From: Isoetes taiwanensis
Lineage: Eukaryota > Streptophyta > Lycopodiopsida > Isoetales > Isoetaceae
Length of the DNA: 64,000 bases
Direction of reading: 5' to 3'
Assembly: GCA_021234155.1 (NCBI GenBank)
Contig: JAJEKV010000165.1
Span: 746,001 to 810,000 of the forward strand
Part shown: in pieces, positions 1,688 through 58,300 of the stretch
Layout: each line of letters begins with the position of its first letter
Position numbering within the stretch: position 1 is the stretch's first letter
Notes under the pieces: generated by a model
Databases searched by the model: none
What the model was told of the DNA's origin: nothing
The model's input: only the letters and a program-made list of their open reading frames with translations
Translations under genes and position numbers: made by a program

Positions 1688-1816
1688 TTCTGCACCAAAA
1701 TCTCTGAGCCTGTACAACTTTGCCAAATCTGCCAGGCCACAAACTTCTCCACTCCAGAGATCCGATGCCCACAGGAAGATCCTGCTGAAGAAATCCGGCG
1801 CAAGGAAGGTATGGCG
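1643..1816 (+). other. Reading frame interrupted by the large hAT element (left part)
   Basis: A 60-codon frame begins with MKITKQH and runs into the transposon. If the element and one target duplication are removed, the frame continues without a stop into the sequence at 12530-12686, which encodes QQASGTTPAVAGFRKRKHH-like residues. I recognise no domain. This continuity suggests, but does not prove, insertion into an exon. Confidence 0.35.
1809..1816. repeat. 8-bp target-site duplication, left (GTATGGCG)
   Basis: GTATGGCG lies directly outside the left terminus. The identical octamer directly follows the right terminus at 12522-12529. Eight-base duplications are the signature of hAT-superfamily insertion. 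Confidence 0.85.
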
Positions 1817-1834
1817 CAGGGATAGGTTCTATAC
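1817..1834. repeat. Left terminal inverted repeat of large hAT element
   Basis: CAGGGATAGGTTCTATAC. The first ~110 bases after this point (GTACAAAATTAAAATT, an AAAAAATACGTATTTTTT block, then CCTCGCCCG) recur, inverted and with few changes, at the right end of the 659-bp relative near 58060. Confidence 0.85.
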
Positions 1835-1934
1835 GTACAAAATTAAAATTCCTGACGTATAAAGTCAAAAAATACGTATTTTTTAATAAAATCGTATTTA
1901 ACGATAAAAACCTCGCCCGTAGGAAAAAAAAAAA

Positions 1935-2215
1935 AATTGTCGTCTGTAGCGTCTGTGAAAAAACTTCAGCGTCTGACGCTGAAATACAAATTCTGCGCCG
2001 CAAAAGTCACGGTCGACTTTCGGCGTCTGCGAAAACTTGATTCCACAGACGCTGAAGTTTTTCAGCGACGCTTTGAAACTATTTAAGCGTCTGACGCGAA
2101 ACCGGCGATGTTAGCGTCTGGCCGAGTTTTCCGTTTGGCGTCTGCGAAAAAGTTTTCAGCAGTACACGAATGAAGTTTTCGCTATCTGCGAAATTTTTTA
2201 TATATTCGCGGCGCG
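1935..2215. repeat. Left subterminal GCGTCTG repeat region
   Basis: GCGTCTG, its reverse CAGACGC and variants such as GCGTCTGACGC and TTTTCAGCG recur many times in both orientations. Comparable motifs fill the right subterminal region and the small relative. In Ac-like elements such subterminal hexamer arrays are transposase binding sites; that role here is inference. Confidence 0.65.
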
Positions 2216-2219
2216 GATT

Positions 2220-3242
2220 CATTTTTTGCCCTTAAACAAGGTATTTCTGCGCCCAACCTTGCAATTTGCCACCCAAAACCTTTTTTTTTTTTTTGTTTTT
2301 CTTAGTTTTTAGGGTTTTTTGTTGTTTTTTTTTTGATAGGTAGGCCCAGTTAGGTCCATGATTAGGCCCTCGCTTGTTGCCCCCCGTGTAAGGGGCGAAC
2401 GATGGTGAGTGCCTTGTTAAATGGGCTGAGCTTGGCCTATTTTAGAAAAAAAAAAAAAATAATAATAATAATTTAAGCAAATAATAATTTAAGAGTAAAA
2501 TAAAAAAAAAAAAAAAAAAAAAAAAAAGAAAAGAAATTGGTTGCCTTCCCTTAAACAACAACCGAGAGGGCTTTTTAGGGTTGCGTGTTGCCAAGAGCAT
2601 AGGCATGCCCTTGCACGGTATTGCGCATTTATTTGCGCCATCTTGGGGTGGGTGGCAATCCTATGCTTTGAAGCTTAAGGCAACTAGGGTCTCCCTTTAG
2701 TAAGAGTATAACCCTCGCTTTGACGCCCGTTGTTGGCCTTGGTCACGCGGTGTCGAAAAGGTGTCGCGTTGTACTTTTATTAAGGGTTAGGAGAATGTTT
2801 TATCAATTCACACCCTAGTTCCTGATGGTGTTGTTGATGAAAGTCCGACACTAATATAGGAACTGGCGTATGTTTTGATAAGCATTCGATTGGTCTCGTC
2901 TTTTGAAAAAAGCGTGACCTAGGACAAGTGCAATGCATTTAAAACTTGCTAGCCTTGCATTTTGGAAGTAGCTGGGCTATAGATCATAAATCGTGTTTTG
3001 GTCCTTTTATTTGTTACCCTATCCTTGGCCTTGCACATACATACTCATGTTAGGGTCTTAGTGTAGGAAGCATAAAATTAGTGTTTTGTTTTGGTTAAAG
3101 TGAGTTGATTTACCCTCATGTGCTAAGCACTAAATTGAAAGTTTTATCTTTGCTTGACTTGTAGGTGTTGCTGTTGTCAGTTGCGTATTATCGCGGAGTC
3201 GCATTTTGCTAGCCTGCTAGACAATCCCTTAAAACAAGAAGT
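2220..3242 (+). other. Non-coding leader region of hAT passenger gene
   Basis: No credible coding frame. It holds T- and A-rich runs (2280-2335, 2447-2530) and unique-looking sequence. A pyrimidine-rich stretch ending in TTGACTTGTAG at about 3163 looks like a 3' splice site shortly before the first passenger ORF, so part of this may be a 5' UTR intron. Confidence 0.3.
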
Positions 3243-3575
3243 ATGACTTCAGAAGAGAGAGCGGAAGTTAACTTGCAACCAAATGTGGCATTAGTGTCTC
3301 AGATAGAGCCGCAACCAGTAGAGGCATTGGCGTCTCAAACACAGGCTACAGAGCTGCAACCTGAGTCATCTTCTGCAGCACTGCCGCGTAGAAAAAGAAG
3401 TAGACCACAACAAGCATGGTCTACTTTGAGACCAGATTTCATGAACTGGTTGTGTAATCGGTTCTGTGCAATGCCTCATTTCGATTTGGAATTGATTACT
3501 AGCGGTGAGGAAGGATGGCTAGACTACCATGCGAGGGCTGGTAAAAGATGCCGAGGGGCTTTTAAGCTTGAATGA
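3243..3575 (+). pseudogene. Passenger ORF, N-terminal part (unknown, basic patch)
   Basis: It encodes 110 residues: an acidic, Gln/Glu-rich first half with a repeated SQ..PQPVEALASQTQ pattern, then a basic patch PRRKRSRPQQ resembling a nuclear localisation signal, then LRPDFMNWLCNRF and a GWLDYHARAGKRCRGAF tail. Coding resemblance continues in another frame from 3573 (MELEHEKSEQERY), so the stop is probably a frameshift scar. I do not recognise the family. It lies upstream of, and in the same direction as, the kinase-like segment, and may be the N terminus of that protein. Confidence 0.4.
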
Positions 3576-4905
3576 TGGAGCTAGAGCACGAAAAGAGTGA
3601 GCAAGAGAGGTATACATGGATAGTGGGTAATATTAGCCGCACTCTACGGCAATATGATCCGCGAAGTTGCAAATTTGAGTAGTCATCGCTTGAGGCTAGA
3701 GTTGAAAGAAAAAGCCAAAGACATGGAATGCGGCGTGGACCAACGAAAATTGAAGAAAGAGGCCCATCAACCCCCATCTTGTTAAGAAAGTGTTGGCGCA
3801 AACCATAAAAGCCAAACGTCCCCGTGAGACGGATAGGGAGTGGGAAGCTCGTAGAAGAAGCGGATGCCAAGACTACTTGGTTTGCCATGGTAGATTCATC
3901 ACAAATAATAAACGGATAAACGAATTGGTTACGGTTCATATGGCGCAGTGTATATAAGTGCAATATTTTAGGGTCTAGTTTTATTAAGGATGAACCTTAT
4001 TGTGTAAAACTTCAACATAATAATTTTCAGCATAGTACGTAACCCAATAAGTTAGTGGAAGCTATCTTTGAAGAACATGAGGGAGTCGGGGAATGCAAGT
4101 TAGGCACGGGTGTATATAATGTGTTGCATTGGTAGCACAACCGGCCTAGAAAGACAAGGCTTAATTTTCCCTTTTTGGAATGGAGGTTAGTTTGGCAACC
4201 TTCTTTACAAGTCATGGGTCCAATGCCTTTCTTGAGCTTGCATTTAAGAAGTTGGGAGCTGTCCCCGAGTTGAGAGCGGACTTGAGGCTGCTTGAGGAGC
4301 CTTGAGAAAAAAAGAATTATTTGTTGCCTCTAGGGTTGGGGACTTAGCAATGTCATTCTCAGGCAGACTCACAAAGCTCCATCAAGAAAGATATTTGCAT
4401 ATGGACTTGCATCCGGGCAATATATTGCTCCATTTTGATTATGGAAAGGAGAAGGGATGTATTAATCCTCGGTCAGTATACATTGGCATTTGTGATTGGG
4501 GTGAATCCGGGTTGATCCACGAGGCAGTGGAGGTAAAACGATGGCATTACAAGGGTATGGATGGCGAAGGTAAGAAAAGAATTGAGATGGAAAGGGCCGG
4601 GCATCCATATATGCATGATGATCTTTTTTGGTAGTGGCTCAAGACGGTGCACGCAAGGGTTGACTTTGATTTACACGGGCAGGCGTACATTGTCTACTAC
4701 TTAGGCGACTTTGCTAGTAAGCACTCCTACATGGAGTCAATAGGAAACTTGGAGCAACAAGGCAAGCATCGGAGAATGTCGCGACTATTTGAAACATTGC
4801 GTTGAGTCGCCAATGAGGGACAAAACACGAAAATTTGATATGGCCCACTACTTGACACAATGCGGGCGATTTCATTGCTCTCAATTCGTTACCAGGAGGC
4901 CACAA
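3573..4905 (+). pseudogene. Kinase-like passenger gene remnant
   Basis: The best-preserved stretch (4302-4634) encodes RLTKLHQERYLHMDLHPGNILLHF and, about 30 residues later, ICDWGESG. These correspond to the protein-kinase-like catalytic loop (H-x-D-x-x-x-x-N) and a DFG-equivalent DWG metal-binding motif. The downstream frame continues past a TAG at 4632 with GQAYIVYYLGDFASKHSY and a charged helix-like tail. Upstream, at 4140-4300, an alternative frame encodes RKTRLNFPFLEWRLVWQPS, perhaps part of the N lobe. Several frame changes and stops break it. The DLHPGN form recalls atypical, aminoglycoside-kinase-like or ABC1-like folds as much as classical receptor kinases; substrate unknown. It lies inside the hAT element on the strand opposite the transposase. 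Confidence 0.5.
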
Positions 4906-5239
4906 TTGGAATCAGATTGGATTCTTCAACTTGGCCGGGTGGCGGCGATGCATTAGACCAAGCTGGTCCTAGTCACGCTAAGCGTGCATATTCACTTACA
5001 TTCAAACATCCTTGTATTACATAATATTCCAACTAAATTCATTAAACACTTATCCGATGCTACATGAAAGATTATTGTCTATGTGTGTTGTGTAGCTTAG
5101 TTTTTCCTTTTAGTGTGTTTTGTGTTATTTATTCTATGCTTTTTATATGTCGCAGCTAACGAACATTATAAAGACAAGAAGTCAAAGCACACCTATACAA
5201 GTCGGTCCGGTGCACCTATAGAAGTCAATGAGTCAAATT

Positions 5240-6660
5240 ATGTCCCACGAACGGGGGCGAAGAATTGAATCGACACCCCGGAATGTGGGTGCGTCGAGGC
5301 AGCAGGATCAGCATGGATTTTCTGGTTCCCTCTAATTTGAGGACCCCCCTCTACTCGATCTCCTTGGCATGAAGGGTTGGAGAACGAGCTTGAGATGTCA
5401 CCGCTTTCGGCAAATGGAGAGAGCGGCGGCACATGCAAGGGCGAATGAGTTTCGCCTGCCCGAGTTAAGAAGGTTGCGTCGCGATGGATGAAGTTTCAAA
5501 GAGGGATAATTGCACCATCACGGAGGTGCATAATGTAGCTGGCGAGGCGGGGCACGCTATTGTCCAAGTGGAGCGGATCTGACGATGTAATCACAAATTT
5601 GGACAAGAATGAGTTTGAAAGTGAGTGGCCTAGTAGGCGGGGGTAAGTATAAGGCTCACGAGTGCAAGAATGCGTGGTTCGAGCAAAAGCACTCGGCGTC
5701 ATGTCCAAGTGAAGGGACATTTACCCCACAAATCGGTGAGTTTAGTAAGAGTTTTGCGCAGACAAGTATACTCTGAGCTTGTGAAGGAAGTGCCCGTAAA
5801 TTATGGGAGTAGGAAATGGAGGCAAGGGAAGCGGCAATTGGCAGCACGAAGAGGGTCAAGCTATCGGAAGATAGCGAGAGGGGGCCACATGGTGAGCCCA
5901 TCACCATTACATACCTTGTTCTTTGACGCTATCCAACTTTTGGAGGTGATGAGGGGTAGCCGGTGGAGCCGTGAATGACCTTGTGGATATTCGGGCCCAA
6001 CTAGAGAATGAGAGAAGTCGGAACGACACTTTCGAGGAGAATATTAAGCGAAAGGACCGTGCCGATGGGTATGATAAGATGGCGCTGAATTAGAGGACGG
6101 CTAAACGGCAACTAAGCGGCATTAAACAGGAGGCAACGGTCCTTAGAGAAAACAACGAGCACTTGCGCCAATTTGACCAAATCGTTAGACTCGACCCTTT
6201 TAGGGTGACTTGAGGGCAGTCGATATCCTATCTCCCTCGCGAGTATTTGTATGAGAGTCGATGGGAAGAGCTAAAGGTTGTTGATTCTGAGACATTGCCA
6301 ATTTTGTGGTGACAACGACACGAGTGGGCTGGTACACTCTAGGGTGTGGGCATCGTATGCACATGCGATGTGTTCTTGATTGGATGTTGCAAAGCCGCTT
6401 CATCCAACCTTGCAAGGCGGATGGATTTTTCCCGAGTTACAATATGCCATATTTAATATGCAAGGTCGCATGCCGGCGTTGACCACATTTGACCGCCGAG
6501 GAGGGATGGGCGGATGCACACTTTTCAAACCTTTCGCGAGATGGAATTGTGGAGGGGGAGGAGCCGCGTGAAGGAGAGCGATGCCGGACATTAACCAGTT
6601 CTTACCACCACCTCCGGGGCCTTGGGTGATTATATTGATCCAAATGACCAATGAAAATGA
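5240..6660 (+). pseudogene. Coiled-coil and RING-like passenger gene remnant
   Basis: From about 5980 to 6190 one frame encodes a heptad-like, charged segment (LVDIRAQLENERSRND, then LSGIKQEATVLRENNEHLRQ) typical of a coiled coil. After a frame change, 6300-6470 encodes FCGDNDTSG, then WYTLGCGHRMHMRCVLDWML, then PCKADGFF and LICKVAC: a C...C, C-x-H-x3-C, C...C pattern resembling a RING finger of E3 ubiquitin ligases, though the last pair (C-x3-C) is irregular. Several stops break it. It follows the kinase-like segment in the same direction and could be the C-terminal part of one large protein or a second gene. Confidence 0.45.
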
Positions 6661-6784
6661 GATATTACATTTTTAGACATGCCAAATTTTGACCTGTATC
6701 ATTTTGTGAATGGCGGGTATAATGACGTTATTTCAAACAAGGTGTAATGATGTTATCAAAGGATCGAGTAGTGCTCATAGTAAA

Positions 6785-7440
6785 AGCATCGAGACTTCCA
6801 AATCGCTCTTTCGTTTTCTGTTTGACGAGTAAAGGCATTGAGACTTCCCAATCTCTTTTATCCTGGCTTAGTCTCTTTTGTTTGTCCTAGTGGTCACCCT
6901 GGCTCACCCTGGCTGAGTCTCCTTCGTTTTCTGTTTATCGTATCTAATTTGCCCCCTAGGATGACATCGCTCACTCAGGTGGCGAATTAGATACGTTAAG
7001 CAGGAAACTCGAAAAGGGAGTAAGCCAAGAGCGCGACCCTCTTGGATGGTCATGGTTGGATGGTGAGTGAGTCAAAACATCTGCACACGCAACCCTCTTG
7101 AATGGTTGTCAGGTCACCAGGCCTTATATTCTCAGTGGCAAACAATATAGACTTCTCGAAATTCTTGTTACCTCCTTTAGAAGGAGCGAGCTTTGCTCTC
7201 ACTCTCTTTTAGCGTGTCTACATTGTCAATGTATCTTAGATACTTTGCTAGGTTATATTACACAAAGGCAGCGCCAAAAATGGGGTCGGGCGTAAATCGT
7301 TCGTTCTAGAGGAGGTTACAAAATTTTTTGAGTACTCTATTTTATTGTGGCCACGGAGGATATAAGGCCTAGTGGTTGCTTAGCGATTACGTGTGTTCAT
7401 TAGATGTTAGTGATTGAAGCAAGCTTTGACTCCTGAATTC
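6785..7440. other. Hairpin-cluster spacer sequence with repeated fragments
   Basis: It contains partial copies of the hairpin families (AGCATCGAGACTTCC at 6787, CATTGAGACTTCCCAATC at 6838) and a block AACCCTCTTGAATGGTTGTCAGGTCACCAGG at 7087, which recurs near 8060. No coding frame of note. Confidence 0.5.
6911..7026. repeat. Hairpin family A, copy 1
   Basis: An imperfect inverted repeat: GGCTGAGTCTCCTTCG... pairs with ...CGAAAAGGGAGTAAGCC, and an inner stem GTATCTAATTTGCC pairs with GGCGAATTAGATAC around a ~30-base loop. The length suits a foldback MITE or a small-RNA precursor. Confidence 0.65.
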
Positions 7441-7556
7441 AAGCATCGAGACTTCCCGTTTTCTTTCCCCGGCTCTTTGGGCAATGTAGCTTAGTTTACA
7501 TGCTAAGTTCCATTGTCCAAAGACCCGGGAAAGAAAGATTGGGGCGTCTCGATGCG
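7441..7556. repeat. Hairpin family B, copy 1
   Basis: AGCATCGAGACTTCCC at the left pairs imperfectly with GGGGCGTCTCGATGC at the right. The inner arm CTTTGGGCAATGTAGCTTAG pairs with CTAAGTTCCATTGTCCAAAG around a TTTACATG loop. The arms are about 50 bases with few mismatches, like plant MIR or MITE hairpins. Confidence 0.65.
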
Positions 7557-7741
7557 GACCCAGTCTCGGGGCGTCGGTGAGGCGCACTCTAATTTCAAGC
7601 CAAAGTGGTGCACGGGCGTTGTCCATCTATCAAAGATGGCGTTAGGCACCAAATCATGGAACATCCTAACTCCTTCTATTGATGGAGAACCTTGAGCATC
7701 ACTATGACTTGAAATTGGAGGGGGCAGCGTCCGTTAACTTT

Positions 7742-7914
7742 GGTATGCCAAATCGCCATTTGGATGCCATCTGGACCTAATAATTTGTACCTCCATTCCT
7801 TTGGGTGGCACATGCCATGCAAACCCATTTGGGTATTCACGCATGTGCCACCCGGAGGAGAAATAGAGTCTGAATTATAGGTCCGATAGCATTCAAAGCC
7901 CAATTTGGCATACC
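7742..7914. repeat. Hairpin family C, copy 1
   Basis: The outer arms GGTATGCCAAAT and ATTTGGCATACC pair perfectly. Further in, GGACCTAATAATT pairs with AATTATAGGTCC, and GGGTGGCACATGC with GCATGTGCCACCC, around a CATGCAAACCCATTTGGG loop. The total span is ~170 bases. Confidence 0.7.
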
Positions 7915-7941
7915 GGAAGTGTCTTCAACTTCGCTCACCAC

Positions 7942-8056
7942 GGCTTAGTCTCTTTTCGTTTTCTGTTTTGTGTATCTAATTTGCCCCTAGGATGACATCG
8001 GCTCACTCGGGTGGCGAATTAGATCGCCAAGCAGAAACTTCGAAAAGGAGTAAGCC
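7942..8056. repeat. Hairpin family A, copy 2
   Basis: Near-identical to the copy at 6911-7026 (GGCTTAGTCTCTTTTCG against CGAAAAGGAGTAAGCC; ATCTAATTTGCC against GGCGAATTAGAT). The downstream flank AGAGCGCAACCCTCTTGAATGG is also duplicated, so the repeat unit extends beyond the hairpin. Confidence 0.65.
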
Positions 8057-8184
8057 AAGAGCGCAACCCTCTTGAATGGTTGTCAGGTCACCAGGCTTTA
8101 TATTCTCCATGGCAAACAATATAGACTTCTGTAGAAGGAGCTTGCGATTCTGTGGGTTCATTAGATGTCGTTGATTGATGAGTT

Positions 8185-8306
8185 CAAGCATCGAGACTTC
8201 CCAATCTTTATTTCCCCTCCTCTTTGGGCAATGTAGCTTAGTTTACATGCTAAGTTCCATTGTTCAAAGAGGGGTGAAAGCAAGGGTTGGGAAGTCTCGA
8301 TGCTTG
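8185..8306. repeat. Hairpin family B, copy 2
   Basis: The best of the three B copies. CAAGCATCGAGACTTCCCAA pairs with TTGGGAAGTCTCGATGCTTG without mismatch, and CCTCTTTGGGCAATG...CTTAG pairs with CTAAG...CATTGTTCAAAGAGG around TTTACATG. The whole ~120-base span folds on itself. Confidence 0.75.
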
Positions 8307-8377
8307 TACTCAGGTCTCTTTCATCCCGGCACGGGCGTGATCCTTGGGGTTAATTGGATGTTAGTGATTGATGAGTT

Positions 8378-8493
8378 CAAGCATCCGAGACTTCCCAATC
8401 TTTCTTTCCCCTCCTCTTTGGGCAATGTAGCTTAGTTTACATGCTAAGTTCCATTGTTCAAAGGGGGTGAAAGGGTTGGGAAGTCTCGATGCT
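8378..8493. repeat. Hairpin family B, copy 3
   Basis: Repeats the preceding copy, including the TTGATGAGTT upstream flank, with small losses in the 3' arm. Tandem spacing of ~190 bases from copy 2 suggests local duplication rather than independent insertion. Confidence 0.7.
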
Positions 8494-8541
8494 GTACTCG
8501 TGTCTCTTTCATCCCGGCACGGAGGCGTGATCCTCTTGAAT

Positions 8542-8712
8542 GGTTGCCAAATCGCCATTTGGATGCCATCACGGACCTATAATTTGTACCTCCATTCCTT
8601 TGGGTGGCACATGCCATGCAAACCCATTTGGGTATTGAGCATGTGCCACCCGGGAGGAATAGAATCTGATTATAGGTCGGAATAACATTCAAAAGCCCAA
8701 TTTGGCATCACC
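8542..8712. repeat. Hairpin family C, copy 2
   Basis: Matches copy 1 in loop and inner stem (GGGTGGCACATGC / GCATGTGCCACCC, and the CATGCAAACCCATTTGGG loop) and retains GCCATTTGGATGCCATC. The outer arms are slightly changed (GGTTGCCAAAT / ATTTGGCATCACC). Confidence 0.7.
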
Positions 8713-8747
8713 GGTTATTCCGACTTGGATGTACGAAGGTACCTTGT

Positions 8748-8899
8748 GAACCTTCGATGGATCAGATTAGGTAGGGCTGGTCCGAGGCTGTTTTGGCCCC
8801 TTCGCATGCGTAGATTACTTCTCATCAGCAAGATTAAAAGCGCATGCGAAGAGGCAACAACAACGGAGGTCGAGGCGGGTCTGATCCAACGAAGGTTTT
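8748..8899. repeat. Hairpin family D
   Basis: GAACCTTCGATGGATCAGA pairs with TCTGATCCAACGAAGGTT. Inside, CCTTCGCATGCG pairs with CGCATGCGAAGAGG. It is a fourth, unrelated hairpin next to the transposase 3' end. Confidence 0.65.
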
Positions 8900-9078
8900 C
8901 GAAACTTCTAGCGGTTTACACATGAAAAAAACATAGAAAGAAACATAGAAAGAACTATCATACATTAACGAAACATTTGTGACAAAAATTATAACCAAAA
9001 ACTTCTTTTTTATTAATAGTGCGGGGGCCGGTTACAATAGTATGAAAATACTCAAGACCAATTACAACGGTGAAGATA

Positions 9079-11810
9079 CTCATCACATCATTTTTCTAGG
9101 CGGCGCCTTCTTCATCGGTTTCATCATTTGCGGTTCCATCCTCTTCTTCTTTGGGAACCTAGGTTCAACCTCCGATGACCCTTTCCTTTAGTGAAACGTC
9201 CTCGAGACGCGTGTTTTCCTAGCCCGTTCTCTGTTTGTCAAGGTAAAGCGCAAAGGTGAGTCCGTTGGATCACGTAAGCCCGATCCGTCATCAAAGCGCA
9301 TTGCTCGAACACGGCCTTTACGTATCGGACTCCTCGGTATCCTCGCTGTCCGGCTGATCCGTGCGAGAATATGGCTTGGTCTATATCATCTTCCATCATC
9401 AGCGAAGTGGAGTACGTTGAATGTCTTCATCAACATGGCTTGCGGCATTTATTGCAAGCATCTCGTCCTCACCGTCTTGGAGAAGTTGTCCTCTTCCACT
9501 TGAATCTGCATCCATGAAAGGAAATCAGGCTTATCGATTGCGGATGTACCCATTTTTCGATTCAATAGCCGCTAGTTTGAGAAGTTGTATACAAGTTTGT
9601 ATGCGCCTTCTTATGTAGCAAGCGATTGCGGGTGACAACGTGTATGTACTTATAGGCACTCCAATTCCTCTCACTTGCACTATTGGAAGATACCAAAGAG
9701 AGGATAGTCATTGCAATTGCCTACAAGGTATCGATAACTTGCCCATGGGCTTGCCACCATGCATATGATTCCATATTTGGTTCCTTCTTATGACTCTCCG
9801 GTCGTCGTGAAGCTCTTCATCGCCCACCTTCCACTTTCGTTTACGGTATTGATTAACTTCGGCAATGAAAAGCTTGTAGTCCGAGCTGTTGGAATAGAAC
9901 ATTTTGCAACCTTCTTCAACGAGCCCATCACTTCTTTATCGTATGCTGGTCCATATCGTGGTTGTGTGGGTCTAAGGCATGCGCGGGCGCCATGAAGATC
10001 AACGTATGACTTCTTCCATCGTTCATTGAAGTCTCACGAGTAGTCTTTGCTTGGCGCTTAGCATTGTCAAATGGCGCATTGGGACCATCACGTTCTAGGA
10101 AGGATTGAATGGAGTTCCAACACCTCCGGACCTTTCCGATGCTTTGCCTTGAAGAATCAAGGGTTTTGATGGCATGACAAACAGGTTGCATGCACCTCAC
10201 AACATTTTTTACACCTTTCCAAAATGTCTCCCGCCCAAGCATTTCTCGAAGGGCAGCAGCTTGCTGTCGGTGTTTGGCGGCATTTTTCCCTTTCTGCCTT
10301 CTTTCCCAATCAAAAAACTCTGTATGATTAAAGGTTGAGATAATCCAATCACGACACTTCAGCACTCTTTCAAGACAGATATAATTGGAACCAAACCGAG
10401 TTTGCCCAGGATTCATGAGTGCTAGGCTCTTCTGACGCAATGACTTGTAAATGGCATAAATTGCCGGCTTCTTTGTGATGAATTTTACAAGCCGACGCGC
10501 TTTCTGAATGGGATCTTTGAACCACGTGTGCTGTGAGAACCAGTCCTTCAGCAATAGGTTCAGGCAATGGCATTGGCAACTAGTAGCATGCAACCCTGGA
10601 AATTCGGCCTCCAGTAATTGACCCGCTAGCTTGCAATTAGACGCGTTATCCATTACAACTTGAAATATTCTCTTCGGTCCAAAACTCTCTATCACGGCCT
10701 TTGTTTTCTGAAAAATCCAATCTCCGGTCACTTGGTCAGTTTTGGTTTCTACGGTTTTCAAAAATACTTCACCCCCTGGATACACGATCATGAAATTAAT
10801 AAGATGGTCCTTGTTTACATTGCTCCAACCATCAGTCACTAATGAAGCTGGCCGCGCTTCAGTCACACGACACAACTTCATCTCCACCCTCTCAACCATT
10901 TTTCCATGTATTTCATCAACCATCTTATTGTTGGCATGCTTGTATGAAGGCAGTCTAAAAGCCGGTCCTGCTTTGGCAACTTCTTGGAAGGCTTCTTTCA
11001 TTGCTTTATGCTCCAGAATATGTGGAGACAACCCAGCATATAAAAATGCCTCTACAACCTTCAGTTGTGTCTTCTTCAATTGCTCTGATGTTAAGCAATG
11101 ATCAACCCTCTGTTGCTTCGTCTGTCTTTCCACTATTTCAATTGTCTCTATCATTCTCTGTTCTCCCGTGCTTATACCTATTGACCCTAGTCCGCCCTCT
11201 GATCGGTATCTTTGTCCCAACAGGGGGTATAGTTATCTTAAATGCCTTACGCCCCCACGCTCTTGAGTATTAAGTAACTTCGTCTTTTTCTCATATTATT
11301 CTTAGTTTTGCGTATCCCATCCGGTCGAGACAATCTCTCGATGGCATCCTTTCGCAAGTCAGCAGAATCAGATGCAGTACAAGTTGCGACACCGACGTCT
11401 CGTTCACGTAAGATGTGAGCTCGAATTCTTGTTGCAGAACCATTTACCGATGTGTATCCACAAAACACACATTCCCACTCATTTGCGCCAAACTCTTTCA
11501 CAAACTCCCATTCTGGGCCTCTTTTCCGACCATAACTCCGGTCTGGCGACCATGTGCACGAGTTGCGGTCCCGTCAGCCCTGCCACGCGCACACCTGCGC
11601 CCCTCGCACCTCTAGAGGTAGATGCATGACCGCTGCCTGCACCTCCAGAGGTAGATGCATGACCAGTAGCCACCATTGCTCGGACCCGGCTGACAATGTC
11701 TCTTAATCTGACTCCTTGATTACACGAACTAAAGGAAGACGTATATATGCAAAGGAGCAAGCTCACAATGCATATGTTACGTCGACGTTCCGTCTTGAAA
11801 AGAATCAAGG
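9079..11810 (-). pseudogene. hAT-superfamily transposase (BED finger, DUF659), decayed
   Basis: Read on the minus strand. An N-terminal Ser/Gly-rich stretch is followed by a BED-type zinc finger (WECVFCGYTSVNGS...RAHIL...GVATC, about 11400-11500). A 430-codon frame at 9928-11220 carries the DUF659/hAT core: TDGWSNVNKDHLINF, VVMDNASNCK and CQCHCLNLLL. Another frame then gives the C-terminal hAT motif SASERNWSAYKYIH...RNRLLHKKA near 9600-9700, ending with a basic tail and a stop at about 9080. The enzyme family cuts and pastes DNA ending in terminal inverted repeats and makes 8-bp duplications, matching this element. Frame changes near 11230, 9930 and 9720 may be introns or decay; I judge mostly decay. 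Confidence 0.8.
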
Positions 11811-12060
11811 GGGGTTGGGCGGGACCCTATAGGATATTCTATGGAAGCAGATGCCAACCCAAGGCTGGAAACCACTGGGACGGAGTAAACTCACGTTCCA
11901 GTATCCAACGTCAGTTGTGACTCGAAAAACGACACCTCAAAGGCAAACCGTTTCCCAAGGAGTATTTTGACTCAACCCGGGCGGTCAGCGTTCGAGGTGA
12001 ATTCTAGGGCTAATCCGTTTTCTTATATATACTATTAACGATTGCCACAAAACAGGCCAA
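11811..12060 (-). promoter_or_regulatory. Putative transposase promoter region
   Basis: Upstream of the transposase, the minus strand reads AGTATATATAAGAAAAC (about 12018-12034), a reasonable TATA box between the subterminal repeats and the first coding frame. No transcription start can be seen directly. Confidence 0.3.
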
Positions 12061-12109
12061 ACAATTGGGCAAAATATTTTTTGCTTAGTAAATCCCGGGC
12101 AAAAGCGGC

Positions 12110-12380
12110 TAGAAAATTTTTTCGGCGTCTGCTTGAAAGCAACAAAACCGCGTCACCGAAAATATTTTCGCTGCGTCGCCGAAGATTATGTTTTCGTCGT
12201 CGCCGAAGTTCAAATTATTTGGCGATGCGAAAAACTCTTAACCGCGTCGGCCGAAAAATTCAGCGTCTGCGGTGGCGTCGTTTTCGGCGTGCGCTTGAAA
12301 AATTGGTTTGGCGTGCGGCGCCAAATCTGTAATCTTCAGCGTCTGTGAAAATATTTTCAGCGTCTGCAGCGGTTTGTTGC
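12110..12380. repeat. Right subterminal repeat region of large hAT element
   Basis: Dense GCGTCTG, GCGTCGCCGAA and TTTTCAGCGTCTG motifs in both orientations, interspersed with GAAAATTTT tracts. The composition and motifs mirror the left end. They produce spurious Arg-rich open frames on both strands, which I do not treat as genes. Confidence 0.65.
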
Positions 12381-12503
12381 TTTTCGGCGTGGCGAAAATT
12401 TTCTCGGCGCCGAATTGTTTTCCAGGTATTTTTTTGTTTTATCACGGCAAATTTGTGCCCGGTATCATTCAATTCATCGTGTATTTATATAAAGCGTCTG
12501 CAT

Positions 12504-12521
12504 GTATTGAACCTATCCCTG
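12504..12521. repeat. Right terminal inverted repeat of large hAT element
   Basis: GTATTGAACCTATCCCTG, the inverse of the left end with one mismatch. The next ~80 bases inward (ACACGATGAATTGAATGAT, GGGCACAAATTTG when reversed) match the left end of the 659-bp relative. Confidence 0.85.
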
Positions 12522-12529
12522 GTATGGCG
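12522..12529. repeat. 8-bp target-site duplication, right (GTATGGCG)
   Basis: Exact copy of the octamer at the left border. Beyond it the flanking sequence is GC-richer than the element end. Confidence 0.85.
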
Positions 12530-13450
12530 GAGCAGCAGGCCTCCGGAACGACACCTGCAGTGGCCGGATTTAGAAAGAGGAAACATCACCCGGAGCTCCG
12601 CCATCCCTGCAGCAGCCCAAGGAGAAACCACCAGTTCCGGCCAAACAGCTATCCGGAACTCCAATATGCCTGCCCAAGATTCTAGGGTTGGGAATCCCAG
12701 TTGCCACCGTCAGCAATATACGGTTTGACTTACGAATACCCCCATAAAACCTTCAGAAATTTCAAGTTATAAATATACCAATTCCAATTTCGGACACATT
12801 ATAGAGGATAGAACACTATGAAAATGTTGGTGAAAAGAATTTGAATTGTGGTGTTTAGGAGGCTTGAGGTATGAGATTTTCTTCGATTCTACATATCGAC
12901 GTGTCTACCACGTCATGAAATTAGTGACGTGTTTTCCCTTCTTTGATATGTTATCTTCTTTCATGTCATCTCACGTCTGAGATGCAATCGATTATTTTTG
13001 TCTTATGAACGGGGTAAGGCGGTGAATGGCTGGGCCGTATTTGAGCTCCATCAGCTGAAGATGACCGTTGGTTTTACTAGAATCATGGTAAACTATCAAC
13101 CTGCTTGTATAGCCTTCCTGACTCCGATGCTGGGAGTATAACGAGCCTTGACGAGCCCTAATTATAGGTGGTTATGCAAGCCAATCAGATTTTGATTGTA
13201 TTATACCTTAACGGTTTTAGCGACTGAAACTGCAGTTGAAGAACTATTTGAAATGAAGCATATTGTGTAATAGTGTCTCAGACATTTTTGTACTCAGGAA
13301 CTAGAATTATTGGAAGCTGCTTTGACCTAGGAAAAATGGGATAGAAGCAATTGAAATCATGGTTTCGTTTTTTGAAGTGTTATTCTTGATAGCTTAGTAC
13401 AGGGAGTTAGTTATTTCTCACCTAGACATAACAGGTTTTAATCGCTCACA
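12530..13450 (+). other. Flank of hAT insertion; no gene recognised after the ORF tail
   Basis: The first ~155 bases continue the interrupted frame (to a stop at about 12685). From there to 13450 I see no long frame, repeat or RNA gene. Confidence 0.35.
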
Positions 13451-19217: not shown

Positions 19218-19550
19218 TGTTGGATTTTTCGAAGGTAGATCAGAATTTCCACGTCATCACAATGCCATCACAACACGAAGTCTTCTGTTGTAACAGTTTG
19301 TCTATTCCTAGAAGCAGTAACAGTTTGTCTATTCCTAGAAGTAGCCGTTCAAAGGACTCCTATAAAGGGAACAACCAAGCATGCCACGATCACTCTGAAG
19401 CGAGCTCCGTCCTGATTTCTTCTCTCTGTTGTCTTTCAATTCCGACTCTCTATTTTCTGTTATTCTCAGCTTGATTCAAGCTGACCCCATTGTACTGTTT
19501 CTCAGATATAAACATAGTTTTCTTCTACTCTTATCTTTCGTCTTTCAATA
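19218..19550 (+). repeat. Copia 5' LTR (333 bp)
   Basis: Begins TGTTGGATTT and ends TCTTTCAATA. It differs from the 3' LTR at about five positions, three of them adjacent (TCC versus AAG near 19358). It contains an internal tandem copy of AACAGTTTGTCTATTCCTAG and a TATAAAGG box at 19361, the probable promoter of the genomic transcript. Confidence 0.9.
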
Positions 19551-19564
19551 GGTTATGGGCCCAC
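19551..19564 (+). promoter_or_regulatory. Primer binding site complementary to initiator tRNA-Met anticodon arm
   Basis: GGTTATGGGCCCAC abuts the LTR. It is complementary to the anticodon stem-loop region of plant initiator tRNA-Met, not to the tRNA 3' end, for which plant Copia elements usually carry TGGTATCAGAGC. It is the type of site used by Drosophila copia and yeast Ty5, which prime from a tRNA-Met half. Confidence 0.75.
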
Positions 19565-19654
19565 ATCTCGGCTGAACAAATCCGCCTCAGACGCACCCGC
19601 CATTTCCTCTTATTTCATTCCTTCCTTCCATTTCCTTCCCTTCTTTCAAGAAAC

Positions 19655-20623
19655 ATGTATGCCGTTCATGGAGCTCAAGGTTCACAAACAGAGTGGAGAA
19701 TGACGGATCGCTTTGAGGGCAAAAACTTCCATCTTTGGAAGTGGCGAATCCAAATGATTCTTGAGGATAAGAATCTGTGGAATTTGGTTAAACCCCTGGA
19801 TCAAGATGAGATCCTTGGGAACGAAGATGGTCATGGTATTCTGCAGGGAGAAGCAGTTGATCCAGCCACGTTGGAGACCCGGGATCTGAAGGCCCGGATA
19901 ATTATCTGCAGTAGCTTGGGAGATACTGCAGCCAAGTTGGTGAAAGATGCCTCTAATGCACGGGATGCATGGATGATCTTACAGAAACGGTATGCCTCTA
20001 ACACTGTCGTCAACCGAGTATTGCTCCGGAAGAAACTGCACGACCTAGAGATGCATGATCAGGATGATGTTGACAAACATATCAGGACCATGAAGGATAT
20101 TCTGGATGACTTAGCAGCCACAGGAGCTGCTGTTGTCACAGAGGACGAAAAGGTCTGTGTTCTTTTAAATAGTTTACCAGATTCTTATGGGAACTTGGTT
20201 ACATTTCTTGAAGGGAAGATTGAAGATTTCAATTTTGAAGCCACCATCGATCGAATCAGACTTGAAGCATTGCGCAAGGCCAAGCATTCCCCCTCAGCCA
20301 AAGAAGACTCCCTTCAGTTTGCCAATGCCCGCAAGAGATCTAATTCCTCAAATCCCTCACATTCTCGTCGCCCTCGTCCTGACAAAAAGCAGATCCAATG
20401 TTTCAGATGTCAATTGTTTGGTCATTATGCACGGGACTGTTCCACTGTGATCACTACTCCACTGCTTCCCACACCAGTGCAAACCACTCCTGCCTCCAAA
20501 TCCATTCCTGAAGAAAGAAGCAACCTCACCATTGACGATGTTGAGCCAAATGAATTCTTATTTTCCAGTGCAGATTTTGGAGACATTACTGGTATCTTGA
20601 TTCAGGTGCTACATCGCACATGA
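19655..20623 (+). pseudogene. gag: Copia gag (capsid, zinc knuckle)
   Basis: The likely start is the ATG at 19655 (MYAVHGAQGSQ), after a leader. The UBN2-like gag domain follows: RFEGKNFHLWKWRIQMILED, WMILQKRYASNT, LRKKLHDLEM, then LLNSLPDSY. A CCHC zinc knuckle CFRCQLFGHYARDC is encoded at 20399-20440. The frame ends just before the protease active site because of a one-base-type frame change near 20580, so gag and pol are not joined as usual in plant Copia. Gag forms the virus-like particle. Confidence 0.85.
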
Positions 20624-21136
20624 CATTCAAAAGGGAACTCTCTACTTCCTATCAGCCTTTGTGCCCTCCAAGAATCGTTCGTTTAGGCGATGACTCTCAG
20701 CAACAAGGCATTGGAATTGGCACTGTATCTTTTGTTCTTCCTAATGGTTCCACGAAATTGATCCGCCATGTGTTACATGTTCCAGGACTAACCAAGCATC
20801 TTCTTTCTATCAGCCGTATAACAGATGCAGGTTACAGGGTCACATTCCATCAACAGCAGTGTCACATATCAGATCATCAAGGCGGCTGCATTCTCATTGG
20901 TCATCGTTGTGGCTATTTATATCAGTTACACATGGAGGAATCTGCAAATTTGTGCACTTCTGTGACGTCTCCCTCTCTCTGGCATCAAAGACTTGGTCAT
21001 CTCGTCTTTTTCATCTCATTCACACAGGTCACATCTGCTCCAAGACTCCAGACAATCAACCCTGCAATGCTTGCCTACAGTGTAAGGTTACCAGAAACCA
21101 TTTTCCTCTTTCTTCTAGTCGTGCCACACTCTTGCC
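20590..21136 (+). pseudogene. Copia protease and integrase N-terminal zinc region
   Basis: The aspartic protease motif WYLDSGATSHM lies at 20590-20622, followed by the LRHVLHVPGLTKHLLSISR-like signature. The pre-integrase region continues as SLWHQRLGH, then after a frame change near 21000 as CNACLQCKVTRNHF (the HHCC zinc region). Another frame change near 21130 precedes the integrase core. Confidence 0.8.
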
Positions 21137-22018
21137 TTGGTGCATGCAGATCTTGTTGGACCAGTTCGATACCCAACATTTGGAGGAGCAAAATACATTC
21201 TTGTTATCCTGGATGACCACTCCCGCAAGCTCTTCACTTATCTGCTCCAGACCAAAGCCCAGACCTTCAATTCCTTTTGTTCATTCAAACAACTCTCTGA
21301 AAAATCTGCTGCCTGCTCTATTGTGGCCCTTAGAACTGATGGAGGTGGGGAATTTACCTCACACACCTTTCGCAACTTCTGTTCCCACCATGGAATTCGT
21401 CATGAGTTCTCTTCTCCACAATGCCCTGAACAAAATGGTCGAGTGGAGAGAGCCAACAGAACTCTTCTTGAAATGGCTAGAACTCTGCTTTTATCCATGA
21501 ATGTACCCCACAGATTCTGGGGTGAAGCGATTGCCACTGCCACTTATCTCATAAATCTGCTTCCTCACCGTGCCATAAACCAAGCCATCCCTGAAGAAAT
21601 TTGGAGCCATCGTCCAGCATCTCATAAACATCTACGAGTATTTGGGTGTAAAGCCTTTGTTCATTCAACGTCCACCACCAAAATGGCACCCAAAGCCTAC
21701 CGGTTCTATGATTTGGATGCCCAAAAGCTTATAGTCAGTCCCAATGCTGCCTTTAACGAGCATGAACCGTGCCATATTTCCCCCATTCCACCCAACATGA
21801 ATCTGATTGAGATCCTTCCAGAGAGTTCTAACCTTGACTCCTCAGTTGATCCTCCACCTGATTTTTCTGTTGCACCTGCCCATTCTATTGACAATTCCCC
21901 CTGTCCACCACTTCACCACCACTTCACGCTCCTCCTTCCTGCACCCAAACTGCTCCATCATCCAGCCGACCTGTTAGAGAGAGGCGACCTCCAGCATGGA
22001 CCTCTGATTATGTCATGA
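21137..22018 (+). pseudogene. Copia integrase core
   Basis: The rve catalytic triad is complete: D in VHADLVGPVRYP, D in LRTDGGGEFTS, E in NGRVERANRTLLEMAR. KHLRVFGCKAFVHST follows. The usual lysine-rich FLGY segment before KAYRFYDLDAQKLIVS is missing, an in-frame loss of roughly a dozen codons. The frame then drifts in the Pro/His-rich linker, where a frameshift separates it from RT. The enzyme inserts the cDNA. Confidence 0.85.
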
Positions 22019-23595
22019 TCTCTAATGATCTTGTTCCTGAACCCAAGACTTTTCGGGATGCCATGAGTTGTTATCATCGTGCAGATTGGCAGCAAGCCAT
22101 GGATGCTGAATTGGCCTCAATCAATACTAATGGTACATGGTTAGTTGTTCCCAGACCTCCTAATCGCCCCATTGTTGGCAGTCGATGGGTGTACAAGGTT
22201 AAGTATTCTAGTGATGGACAGATCGAGCGTTTCAAAGCCCGGTTTGTGGCAAAAGGGTTCAGCCAAATCGAAGGAATCGACTTTGATGAGACATATGCAC
22301 CTGTTGCCCGTTTGACATCTATCAGAACTCTCTTGGCATATGCAGCAGTACAGGGTTTTCACATTCATCAGATGGATGTACAAAATGCTTTTCTCCACGG
22401 CACTCTTGATGAAGAAGTATATATTGATGTTCCGGAAGGATTCTCATTTCCACCCAACTCGGTGTGCAGACTCCACAAAGCGCTTTACGGACTTCGACAA
22501 GCTTCGCGATCTTGGTATCACACTCTCCGTTCTGTTCTCCATAATCTCGGATTCAGTGTTTGTCCAGCAGATGCAAGCCTTTATTTCCAACTTCATCCTT
22601 TTCCCATATTTCTTGCCGTCTACGTGGATGACTTGCTCATACTAGCCCATCCACAAGCTGACCTCCCAAATCTGAAACAACAGCTCTCCTCTCACTTTTC
22701 TACGAAGGACTTAGGACCTGCTCACTACTTTCTTGGCATCCAGCTTAAATATGATCAAGCTGCTGGCACCCTCTTCATTCACCAACAGAAATACCTGCAA
22801 AACATCCTTTCATGTCACAACTTGCTCCAATGCAATCCTACCTTGACTCCTTTGGATCCCAATTGCCAACTCCTTCCCTCTGATCCGACCTGTTCACCAG
22901 ATTTTACGTACTTTGCTGACCATTACAGATCTATTATTGGTTCTCTCAATTTTGCTGCTCAAGCTACTAGACCTGATCTTGCTTTTCCCATATGCAAACT
23001 GAGCCAATATCTTAATGCTCCCAAGCACTCTCACTGTGTTGCACTCAAGCGTACTCTCCGCTATCTTGCTGGTACTCTCCATCATGGTCTCCTCTATAAA
23101 GCTAGTGGGGGTTCTGATCTTATTGGTTATGCTGATGCTGATTGGGCTGCCGACTCTCATGATCGCAAATCTGTGTCTGGTTATGTTTTCACACTTGCCC
23201 ACACTGCCATCTGCTGGAGCAGCTCCAAACAACAATGCACTGCTCTCTCTACAACTAAGGCTGAATACATCAGCCTATCTCATGCCACCAGAGAAGCCCT
23301 TTGGCTTCGACAACTTGTTCATAGCTTGCATCTCCATATCCCTCTTCAAATTCCTCTGCACAACGACAATCAAGGGGCCATAGCTGTCGCTCACAATCCC
23401 GTCAACCACCGCCGTCTCAAACACATTGACCTCCGCTATCACTTTCTCCGAGATCATGTCACCAATTCTGATATCTCCATCCTATTTTGCCCCTCTGATT
23501 CCATGCCAGCTGATATGTTCACTAAACCTCTTGCATCACCAAAACTGTCAACTTTTTCTACCAAGATTAGGCTCCTTTCACCAGCTTGTCTCTGA
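22015..23595 (+). CDS. Copia reverse transcriptase and RNase H (open)
   Basis: A continuous 526-codon frame. RT motifs: WVYKVKYSSDGQIERFKARF, FDETYAPVARLTSIR, QMDVQNAFLHG, LYGLRQASRSWY and YVDDLLIL (catalytic YVDD at 22621). RNase H motifs: GYADADWA, TKAEYISL and DNQGAI, closing with KHIDLRYHFLRDHV and DMFTKPLA. Stop at 23593-23595. The ATG at 22015 overlaps the preceding stop and is internal to the original polyprotein, so independent translation is unlikely. It copies genomic RNA to cDNA. Confidence 0.9.
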   Translation: MISNDLVPEPKTFRDAMSCYHRADWQQAMDAELASINTNGTWLVVPRPPNRPIVGSRWVYKVKYSSDGQIERFKARFVAKGFSQIEGIDFDETYAPVARLTSIRTLLAYAAVQGFHIHQMDVQNAFLHGTLDEEVYIDVPEGFSFPPNSVCRLHKALYGLRQASRSWYHTLRSVLHNLGFSVCPADASLYFQLHPFPIFLAVYVDDLLILAHPQADLPNLKQQLSSHFSTKDLGPAHYFLGIQLKYDQAAGTLFIHQQKYLQNILSCHNLLQCNPTLTPLDPNCQLLPSDPTCSPDFTYFADHYRSIIGSLNFAAQATRPDLAFPICKLSQYLNAPKHSHCVALKRTLRYLAGTLHHGLLYKASGGSDLIGYADADWAADSHDRKSVSGYVFTLAHTAICWSSSKQQCTALSTTKAEYISLSHATREALWLRQLVHSLHLHIPLQIPLHNDNQGAIAVAHNPVNHRRLKHIDLRYHFLRDHVTNSDISILFCPSDSMPADMFTKPLASPKLSTFSTKIRLLSPACL

Positions 23596-23644
23596 GTGGG
23601 GGCTTCTACATGGTGATTCATTCAGAGCCATGCTGATCTACTTC

Positions 23645-23653
23645 GAGTGGGGG
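23645..23653 (+). promoter_or_regulatory. Copia polypurine tract
   Basis: GAGTGGGGG directly precedes the 3' LTR and would prime plus-strand DNA. A second TGAGTGGGGG lies just after the pol stop (23594-23603). Confidence 0.85.
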
Positions 23654-48491: not shown

Positions 48492-48539
48492 GATCTCTTC
48501 CCTGGTGCTTCAGCTCTCTGAAAATGCAAGCTTTTGGCT

Positions 48540-57234: not shown

Positions 57235-58300
57235 AGTTACTCACTAAAAAGGAGAGAGTTGATGGGTGAGTCATAAACAAATTCGAGACGAAAAAGCATG
57301 TCTGGTCACTGTAGATGCACCATTTCTCGTGAAGGAGGTGAAATCGATCGAATGGGTAAATGGACAAAATGATAGAAATCAAGGTTGAGGTCAGGGGAAA
57401 GCAGGGATAGGTTCAATACGCTGTACGTTTTATACGGAATACGTATGAATTGTATGATACGGCACAAATTTGTCGATATAAAGCATAAAAAATCGACCAA
57501 AAACAATTAAAATTGCGTCGAAGATTTTGTCTGTGGCAACTATATCAGCGTCGCTGAAAAATTTTCGTCTTGAAAACCTTCGTGAATCAGCGACTGTGAA
57601 ACCAAAAATTTTGCCCCCAGACGTAAACTCGCCTCAACAGACGCTGACTTTTTTCGCCAGCGATTTAGTTGTTTTCGCGTGCCGGTAAATCTTTCGACGT
57701 ACCGGAATTGTTTTTTGGTATTTTTTGCCGTATTTTTTTTTTTTCAACACCGTAGGCTTTCAGCGTGCGCCGAAATGAACTGATGTAAGCGTGACGCGAA
57801 AAATTTTCGCGTGACGCTTATCCGCGAAGCTTTTGGACGCAGCGAATCGTCGCCGGAGCCTTTCCTTTACCAGCTGATTCTTTCTATTTCGGCGACTGTG
57901 AAAAATTTTATCGACGCTTTCCGCGGTTTTCGCGTGCCAAGATTTTTTCCTACCGGGCGAGGTATTTATAATGTTAAATCATGTATTTTATTAAAAAATA
58001 CGTATTTTTTAACTTTATACGTCAGAAATTTTAATTTTGTACGTATAGACTCTATCCCTGGGGGAAAGAAGCAGAAATTGAAGTTAAACTGACATGGAGG
58101 ATTGATTTTTGGTAGAAGCGGTTGGTTGGATACACATGAAAATCAAGCAATGGGACAAAGTCAAAGTCGAGAAGGGCGTCTTGAGGTCGAAGTTGAGATC
58201 ATGTCAAGAACAAAGCTAATGCCAAGGCCAACACGAGGGGGGGAATTCAAAATAGTTATAAAAATGTAAAAAATACCCGAGGAAATTGGGAATATAGCAC
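57235..58300. repeat. Dispersed repeat, copy 1 (split by small hAT element)
   Basis: The blocks CTAAAAAGGAGAGAGTTG, GTGAAGGAGGTGAAATCGAT, CGATCGAATGGG, GTTGAGGT, then, after the inserted element, AAACTGACATGGAGG, ACACATGAAAA and GAGATCATGTCAAGAACAAAG match the order at 62000-62450. No coding frame. Confidence 0.65.
57402..58060 (+). mobile_element. 659-bp non-autonomous hAT relative of the large element
   Basis: The termini CAGGGATAGGTTCAATAC and (reversed) CAGGGATAGAGTCTATAC are flanked by the perfect octamer GGGGAAAG (57394-57401, 58061-58068). Its right ~110 bases match the left end of the 10.7-kb element, and its left ~75 bases match that element's right end, so it lies in the opposite orientation. 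Its middle holds the same GCGTC/CAGACGC-type subterminal motifs and no transposase. It could be mobilised only in trans. Confidence 0.9.

Follow-up and report, generated by a model that had tools for sequence, protein, structure and literature searches.

A hAT transposon of 10,705 bp in the lycophyte Isoetes taiwanensis is very probably one copy of a high-copy family in which cargo is a fixed part of the element. We analysed a 64,000-nucleotide stretch of contig JAJEKV010000165.1 (assembly GCA_021234155.1, positions 746,001–810,000, forward strand), here called the window, in which the element spans 1817–12521. Besides its transposase gene, it holds a kinase-like and RING-like coding region, termed the passenger below, and an array of hairpins. 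A sequence-only reading of the window had offered a cargo-bearing hAT lineage or an element with large nested insertions; the former is supported, with the passenger at the same place in 11/11 transposase-bearing loci among the 20 best-scoring left-end matches elsewhere in the assembly and no second pair of ends found enclosing it. The whole unit was found at separate sites with separate 8-bp duplications, and therefore moves, or moved, as one.

Anatomy of the element

The element belongs to the hAT superfamily, with 8-bp target site duplications, short terminal repeats and a transposase with DUF659 and dimerisation domains. Its parts, in window coordinates, are as follows.

1809..1816, no strand: left 8-bp target site duplication GTATGGCG, identical to 12522–12529
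1817..1834, + strand: left terminal inverted repeat CAGGGATAGGTTCTATAC, 17/18 bases alike with the right repeat
1930..2330, + strand: left subterminal region with seven GCGTCTG motifs (motif count)
3243..4988, + strand: passenger part 1, basic N-terminus and protein kinase domain, broken in the window copy, open (564 amino acids) in copy L017
4985..5159, + strand: low-GC (guanine–cytosine) stretch (29.7%), either an intron within a single gene or the gap separating two
5160..6740, + strand: passenger part 2, coil-like stretch (about 5971–6210, by eye) and RING-H2-like finger (about 6293–6490)
6780..8900, + strand: hairpin array between the convergent genes (folding, repeats, order in other copies)
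9085..11830, − strand: hAT transposase gene, with an open 434-amino-acid reading frame at 9928–11232, DUF659 at 10492–10950 and the dimerisation domain at 9595–9780
12100..12500, − strand: right subterminal region with five GCGTCTG motifs (motif count)
12504..12521, − strand: right terminal inverted repeat CAGGGATAGGTTCAATAC, read inward from 12521, 17/18 bases alike with the left repeat
12522..12529, no strand: right 8-bp target site duplication GTATGGCG, identical to 1809–1816

The matching ends, perfect duplication and subterminal repeats that had been claimed for this element all held. The terminal repeats agree in 17 of 18 bases, and GTATGGCG is exact on both sides. Across the 64 kb we looked for inverted ends, 150 bp to 25 kb apart, that share an exact 7-base seed and 10 or more of 14 bases, also requiring an exact 8- or 9-bp duplication with more than two kinds of letter; the sole qualifying pair was the ends of the 10,705-bp element (13 of 14 bases), and five shuffles of the sequence gave 0, 0, 1, 1 and 1 pairs, at best 11 of 14. 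GCGTCTG, counted seven times on the left and five on the right, was absent between the two subterminal regions (2331–12099) and occurred three times in the remaining window outside the two family copies. These clusters are putative transposase-binding repeats, with a motif unlike the AAACGG of the maize element Ac, whose ends begin CAGGGAT.

The second family copy in the window, which the sequence-only reading had not remarked on, is a short one, absent from the scan because the filter drops two-letter duplications. Its two ends, read from 58060 to 57402, match their counterparts in the 10,705-bp copy at 90% and 79% identity.

57402..58060, − strand: 659-bp non-autonomous family copy, duplication CTTTCCCC at 57394–57401 and 58061–58068 (ends and duplication)

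A BED/DUF659 transposase had been proposed. DUF659 was confirmed on the 434-amino-acid frame (Pfam, E = 1.3e-28), and the dimerisation domain Dimer_Tnp_hAT scored E = 1.4e-6 (28.5 bits against a cut-off of 21.4) with stops read as X. The BED finger is a candidate by eye: a CxxC and His pattern can be made out at about 11250–11573, where Pfam gave no match. The window transposase shifts frame before and after the 434-amino-acid frame, and a protein-database search with that frame returned a single distant DUF659 protein, from Trifolium, at 25% identity.

The passenger lies on the + strand, opposite the transposase, as had been noted. Part 1 carries PRRKRSRP at about 3384, a glycine loop at about 3927, HMDLHPGN at 4398 and DWG at 4494, so that the kinase motifs (glycine loop, lysine, HxD...N, DxG) are in order by eye. 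The kinase-like segment proposed for the element was borne out in other copies: Pkinase was below its curated cut-off of 31.7 bits in the window copy (21.9 bits, E = 1.3e-4), where the passenger frames are broken, but above it in the majority sequence of 11 copies (41.8 bits, longest frame 316 amino acids) and in L017 (43.8 bits). In L017 an unedited 564-amino-acid frame comprises the N-terminus and the kinase and matches PK_Tyr_Ser-Thr at E = 5.2e-12 (46.0 bits, cut-off 23.1). This match covers profile positions 4–154 of 258 (across the kinase profiles, it ends at 154 of 258–263), and the far C-lobe is therefore not recognised.

In the RING-like finger, CQFC and CGHRMHMRC are present, and a final CxxC pair can be seen in one L017 frame; zf-RING_2 gave E = 0.0017 in the window copy and 4.8e-4 once two frames were joined with X, both short of the curated score. 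The 3' end of the low-GC stretch resembles a plant 3' splice site by eye, and CCTAGC precedes the stretch in 7 of 11 copies. A protein-database search with the 111-amino-acid kinase reading frame found no match, and a plasmid collection searched with 1817–9000 gave none. Against the PDB, the kinase matched ULK1 and casein kinase I weakly and in part (E about 0.1), and the L017 frame matched nothing at 1e-4. Alignment-free structure prediction for the kinase C-lobe was of no use (mean predicted local distance difference test score, pLDDT, 42.9).

Were the kinase/RING stretch a second transposable element nested in an ordinary hAT, this could account for an element about twice the length of Ac and for a passenger on the opposite strand. 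We give this explanation almost no credence. In a scan of 1800–12540 (9-base inverted seed, duplication of at least 3 bp) only the hAT itself stood out, the next best pairs having duplications of 3–4 bp; none of the 20 largest direct-repeat families flanks the passenger; its GC content is close to that of the transposase; and it keeps its place in the copies examined.

The passenger recurs in other copies

We searched the host assembly (1,658,258,908 bases in 1110 contigs) with the left end, the kinase DNA and the transposase DNA. These queries gave 1429, 648 and 642 first-look candidates, respectively; the best 40 were scored for each, and 40/40 matched every time. From the 39 left-end matches outside the window we took the 20 best-scoring loci, each with 10 kb inward. 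Eleven of these 20 have transposase sequence, and in 11/11 the passenger keeps both its place and its order. A search of the genome with the element's ends had been suggested as the check on the cargo reading, and on the left end its outcome is thus favourable. Full-length copies lacking the passenger, named as evidence that would speak against that reading, did not occur among these 11 loci.

Basic N-terminus, kinase, coil/RING region, hairpins and transposase follow one another as in the window in L009, L010, L012, L014, L015, L017, L019, L022, L023 and L026, and the passenger is of whole length in 9 of the 11 loci. In L022 the final 0.2 kb of the coil/RING part is gone, along with the beginning of the hairpins, and in L013 a deletion runs from the middle of the kinase into the hairpin array. 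The fetched stretches of L019 and L026 show a truncated or rearranged transposase. The remaining nine loci are five short two-ended copies and four with a left end only (BLAST). The short two-ended copies retain the ends only, and three of them (L011, L016 and L024) have 8-bp duplications too.

Six passenger-bearing copies and the window copy have perfect, mutually different duplications around 9.5–11.3 kb of sequence; the six are listed here together with L013.

L009: 11,275 bp, perfect duplication GAACTTAT
L010: 9,523 bp, perfect duplication CCACACGC
L012: 10,342 bp, perfect duplication AAGCATCT
L022: 10,209 bp, perfect duplication TACAAAAC
L023: 10,607 bp, perfect duplication GCTATTAG
L014: 10,281 bp, perfect duplication ATAAAGTG, one or few odd bases at the right terminus
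L013: perfect duplication TTCCTAAT, one or few odd bases at the right terminus

Spacing is also preserved: the distance from the left-end match to the start of the kinase DNA is 1,411–1,421 bp in L017, L022 and L012 and 1,434 bp in the window. Among the best 40 of the 648 kinase candidates, the 39 besides the window are 89–94% identical, and 38 of the 40 (window included) cover at least positions 14–1748 of the 1748-position query (3243–4990). Kinase and transposase matches are paired on one strand at 6 of the 40 kinase places, window included, at a distance of 5.0–6.7 kb and once 11.9 kb; both lists being the best 40 each, the 34 unpaired kinase places are uninformative.

Two copies show further structure. 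In L026 (G000:C1067:15138776–15148770), at 9039–9990, the transposase runs into the right end of an inverted second copy, by insertion or rearrangement. L014 (G000:C946:546650–556649) is a mosaic, its mismatches against L012 amounting to 3.0% in the kinase, 12.5–13.5% in the transposase and 8.9% in the coil/RING part, as if modules had been exchanged between subfamilies. In the main text of the I. taiwanensis assembly paper, hAT elements are unmentioned (PMC8566536).

Selection on the passenger

We compared variants shared by at least two copies with those private to one copy, over 10 aligned copies (here and in the block counts below, L013 was left out as deleted and L014 as most diverged; L022 was kept). 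Shared variants in the passenger comprised 131 nonsynonymous (N) and 83 synonymous (S) changes, a normalised N/S of 0.51, against 210 N and 71 S (0.95) for private variants (Fisher p = 0.0017). Read in the two shifted frames, the shared variants gave 0.95 and 0.93; these frames are the better control because the private variants hold many probable sequencing errors. Replacements are thus fewer among shared variants in the passenger's own frame and not in the shifted ones, and we therefore conclude that the N-terminal and kinase part bears a mark of purifying selection in the source lineages, clear in the N-terminus (p = 0.0026) and borderline in the kinase (p = 0.050). The transposase frame, tested on 10 sequences including L013 and without L014 and L019 (too little aligned), had no contrast (private 0.71, shared 0.66, p = 0.82), and nor had its shorter majority frame (0.70 and 0.85, p = 0.62).

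These results bear on passive capture, in which the element would have acquired a host kinase/RING gene a single time and copied it along without benefit, as in Pack-TYPE elements and transduplication. Gene capture by hAT elements is known (PMC6710886; PMC8903248), and significant selection is seen in only part of the passenger. The frame-specific shortage of replacements, the passenger's presence in every transposase-bearing left-end locus and the unbroken 564-amino-acid frame of L017 argue the other way, and we consider passive capture quite improbable.

Broken frames centre on CAG and CTG

The aligned copies are near alike save at spots, spaced by a few tens of bases, at which many of them disagree. 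Over 10 copies, 84 of 202 variable blocks have at least four alleles. With L017, the copy richest in CAG/CTG, as the reference, blocks of at least five alleles contained CAG or CTG in 45 of 59 cases against 12.1 expected (standard deviation 2.9, maximum 20, 200 trials), and two-allele control blocks in 6 of 80 against 5.7. CAG/CTG number 100 in the L017 passenger and 45 in that of the window copy. Where frames are broken these triplets are depleted: CAG and CTG stand at 0.41 and 0.44 of expectation in the window passenger and at 0.17 and 0.40 in the transposase at 9085–9927. In open stretches they stand at 1.01 and 0.67 (transposase reading frame) and at 0.98 and 1.01 (a copia element of the window).

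Both triplets are symmetric CHG sites, a context that is methylated in plant transposons, and nanopore base calling makes errors in methylated contexts. A paper on nanopore methylation calling (PMC8514461) yielded nothing on base-calling errors in a text search. The I. taiwanensis assembly was made from nanopore reads (flow cell v9.4.1) with racon and pilon polishing (PMC8566536). We therefore think that the frameshifts are probably for the most part an artefact of nanopore miscalls at methylated CHG sites. The broken kinase and RING frames are likewise probably an assembly effect of these CAG/CTG-centred spots. Decay as the cause of the frameshifts was considered and dropped after the hypervariable CAG/CTG blocks and the depletion had been found.

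Duplicated hairpins of the window copy differ by 23 insertions or deletions (indels) and 32 substitutions, and the pair of copia long terminal repeats (LTRs) by 0 and 5. Earlier tests, since replaced by the CAG/CTG test, had placed recurrent single-base indels at CG in 4 of 17 cases (background 0.143) and duplicated-hairpin indels near CG in 11 of 23 (background 0.235, p = 0.009).

Another explanation is that all copies are dead, with transposase and passenger truly frameshifted in a fossil family that was moved in trans long ago. In its favour, 5 of 12 copies have no 200-amino-acid frame, none has a complete transposase frame, and the window transposase changes frame on either side of its open part. 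The clustering of hypervariable spots on CAG/CTG, the depletion of these triplets, more marked in broken than in open frames, the nanopore basis of the assembly and the open kinase frame of L017 count against it, and on balance we hold a dead family to be unlikely.

The hairpin array

Ten hairpin pieces of six families lie between the convergent genes, all on the + strand.

6885–7046: H1
7115–7374: H2
7443–7555: H3
7582–7725: H4
7742–7914: H5
7942–8056: H1b
8179–8312: H3b
8373–8499: H3c
8538–8720: H5b
8749–8897: H6

The hairpins recur in other copies, as the sequence-only reading had suggested should be looked for: over 12 elements the six families mostly follow the order H1 H2 H3 H4 H5 ... 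H6, with extra copies after H5. The pieces number 6–13 per element; H2 is missing or partial in L010, L013, L015 and L019, and L026 is without H6. Against 60 shuffles each, folding z-scores were −6.7 to −16.9 on the + strand and −4.9 to −14.5 on the − strand, and the array as a whole folds at −972.8 kcal/mol (+) against −846.0 kcal/mol (−). G.U pairs exceed A.C mismatches 42 to 17 in the window copy (p = 0.0015), 27 to 13 with one copy per family (p = 0.038) and 34 to 12 in the six family majorities. Comparisons of the duplicated hairpins in the window copy found two both-side pair changes in one of five and none in the other four. Rfam at its gathering scores had no match over the whole window.

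The array may have an RNA role. That it is a functional RNA locus, a source of small RNAs or a silencing decoy, as opposed to a by-product of tandem and inverted duplication, would fit the largely constant order of six families in 12 copies, the strong folding, better on the + strand, and the G.U excess. Current variation offers neither a strand preference (shared variants G.U 36 to A.C 33; private 34 to 27) nor an excess of compensating changes (both-side changes restored pairs in 15 of 34 cases, close to the 4/9 reckoned for a C–G pair). The piece number varies, one copy is without H6, and a transcription-linked mutation bias could equally yield the G.U excess; a functional RNA locus is therefore a doubtful reading, though less so than a dead family.

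Weighing the cargo-bearing reading

The following points, together with the absence of strand preference and compensating excess among current hairpin variants, tell against a family with functional cargo. The 20 left-end loci are the best-scoring ones and not a random sample. Reading frames are broken in most copies, a complete transposase frame is present in 0 of 12, and some of the breaks may be genuine. The flanks of L015 are alike in 6 of 8 bases, and those of L017 (G000:C1010:385935–395930), the copy with the best kinase frame, are unmatched (CTTCCACT against CCCAATTA); L017 is possibly a recombinant or a misjoined assembly. Transposase without a kinase exists: L035, chosen for a left end only 3.3 kb from the transposase, is a deletion derivative that has lost the kinase and retains the hairpins together with the 3' portion of the RING region. 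The best zf-RING_2 score, 22.2 bits, is below the cut-off of 27.3, as in every search. The passenger may be one spliced gene or two genes, and both stand because CCTAGC gives a stop in one L017 frame. Over the 10 copies, the coil, RING and C-tail frames have no significant selection contrast (p = 0.50, 0.74 and 0.78), the shared variants of the RING frame being if anything less constrained (1.08 against 0.81 for private), and private variants, with their many probable errors, are a weak neutral control.

Proposed mechanism

We propose that the DUF659 transposase would act by ordinary cut-and-paste, recognising both the terminal inverted repeats and the subterminal GCGTCTG motifs. Purifying selection on the passenger implies some use to the element, which makes the family a case, open to testing, of a DNA transposon equipped with a signalling or ubiquitin enzyme. 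The passenger product, with less confidence, may be a kinase with a basic N-terminus (nuclear-type, by eye) and a RING finger, either within that protein or in an adjacent one, which might serve the element through phosphorylation and ubiquitylation of host or transposase proteins; the benefit, equally tentatively, would most simply be that host silencing is weakened or transposition tuned. More speculatively, the hairpin array could form the 3' portion of the passenger transcript or buffer the convergent genes from each other, and might be processed into small RNAs.

A bolder suggestion, which we advance tentatively and with more doubt than belief, is that this lycophyte hAT has a second module, of nuclear kinase, RING ubiquitin ligase and six-family hairpin array, whose parts act together against host silencing, the enzyme by protein modification and the array through small RNAs or as a decoy. 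If true, this would be, as far as literature searches show, the first case of a selected accessory module in a plant hAT. The frame analysis has a wider bearing, as a hazard for transposon reading frames in this assembly: genes that appear broken may be artefacts of methylated CAG/CTG.

Comparison with known systems

Ac is 4.6 kb long, with a single transcript and the subterminal hexamer AAACGG, and Ac/Ds shares with the Isoetes family 8-bp duplications, short terminal repeats, subterminal repeats at both ends and short non-autonomous relatives that have little beyond the ends in common (PMC3260210). The Isoetes family departs from Ac in its length of 9.5–11.3 kb, in its GCGTCTG motif and in having both a hairpin array and a further gene region convergent with the transposase.

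Closer in build is a hAT of Pseudocercospora fijiensis with a captured histone H3, likewise of 9.5–9.9 kb at full length, with DUF659, 8-bp duplications, a high copy number and a regular non-transposase gene; it differs in being fungal, in carrying histone H3 and in having copies inactivated by repeat-induced point mutation (RIP), whereas the Isoetes element is from a plant and has a kinase and RING and evidence of purifying selection (PMC6710886). hAT7 and other fungal DNA transposons also have a passenger enzyme, a TET/JBP dioxygenase, as a regular part, and in IS3EU elements TET/JBP is flanked by oppositely oriented transposase and alpha-kinase genes; hAT7, however, is from rust fungi and has 7-bp duplications and the dioxygenase, against 8 bp and a Pkinase-fold protein kinase with RING in Isoetes (PMC12730594). 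Pack-TYPE elements (Pack-hAT) similarly have hAT ends around non-transposase coding DNA but are non-autonomous by definition, and the Isoetes element has transposase sequence with its cargo (PMC8903248). We considered Pack-TYPE membership and, at least on gene content, rejected it, with transposase sequence in 11 of the 20 left-end loci and the passenger in each of these. Large hATs with a regular extra gene are thus known from fungi, and the plant case found is the non-autonomous Pack-hAT (PMC6710886, PMC12730594, PMC8903248). Among the titles and openings of abstracts that literature searches returned, a scope outside which most subscription papers fall, none reports a hAT with a kinase or RING gene.

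VANDAL elements are Mutator-like and, to our knowledge, have no kinase or RING. With their VANC anti-silencing proteins they resemble the Isoetes element as plant DNA transposons with an extra gene that acts for the element, and differ in that VANC acts on the DNA methylation of target elements (PMC5735166). By analogy, VANDAL and VANC could be a model for what the cargo might do.

Other features of the window

Two adjoining reading frames on the − strand at 47239–48509 (253 and 184 amino acids) have a coil-like stretch and a RING-like Cys/His pattern; Pfam matches were weak (E = 0.0055 and worse), and the reading frames of the hAT element had no match there. The copia element lies at 19218–23986, with LTRs 98.5% identical (5 mismatches and no gap over 333 bp) and a pol at most 45% identical to database proteins among the 120 matches listed of 736. 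It is followed shortly by a diverged tandem-repeat array at 24572–25942. A simple repeat coding for His, Pro and Thr occupies 43628–44152, with tandem copies at 43653–44075.

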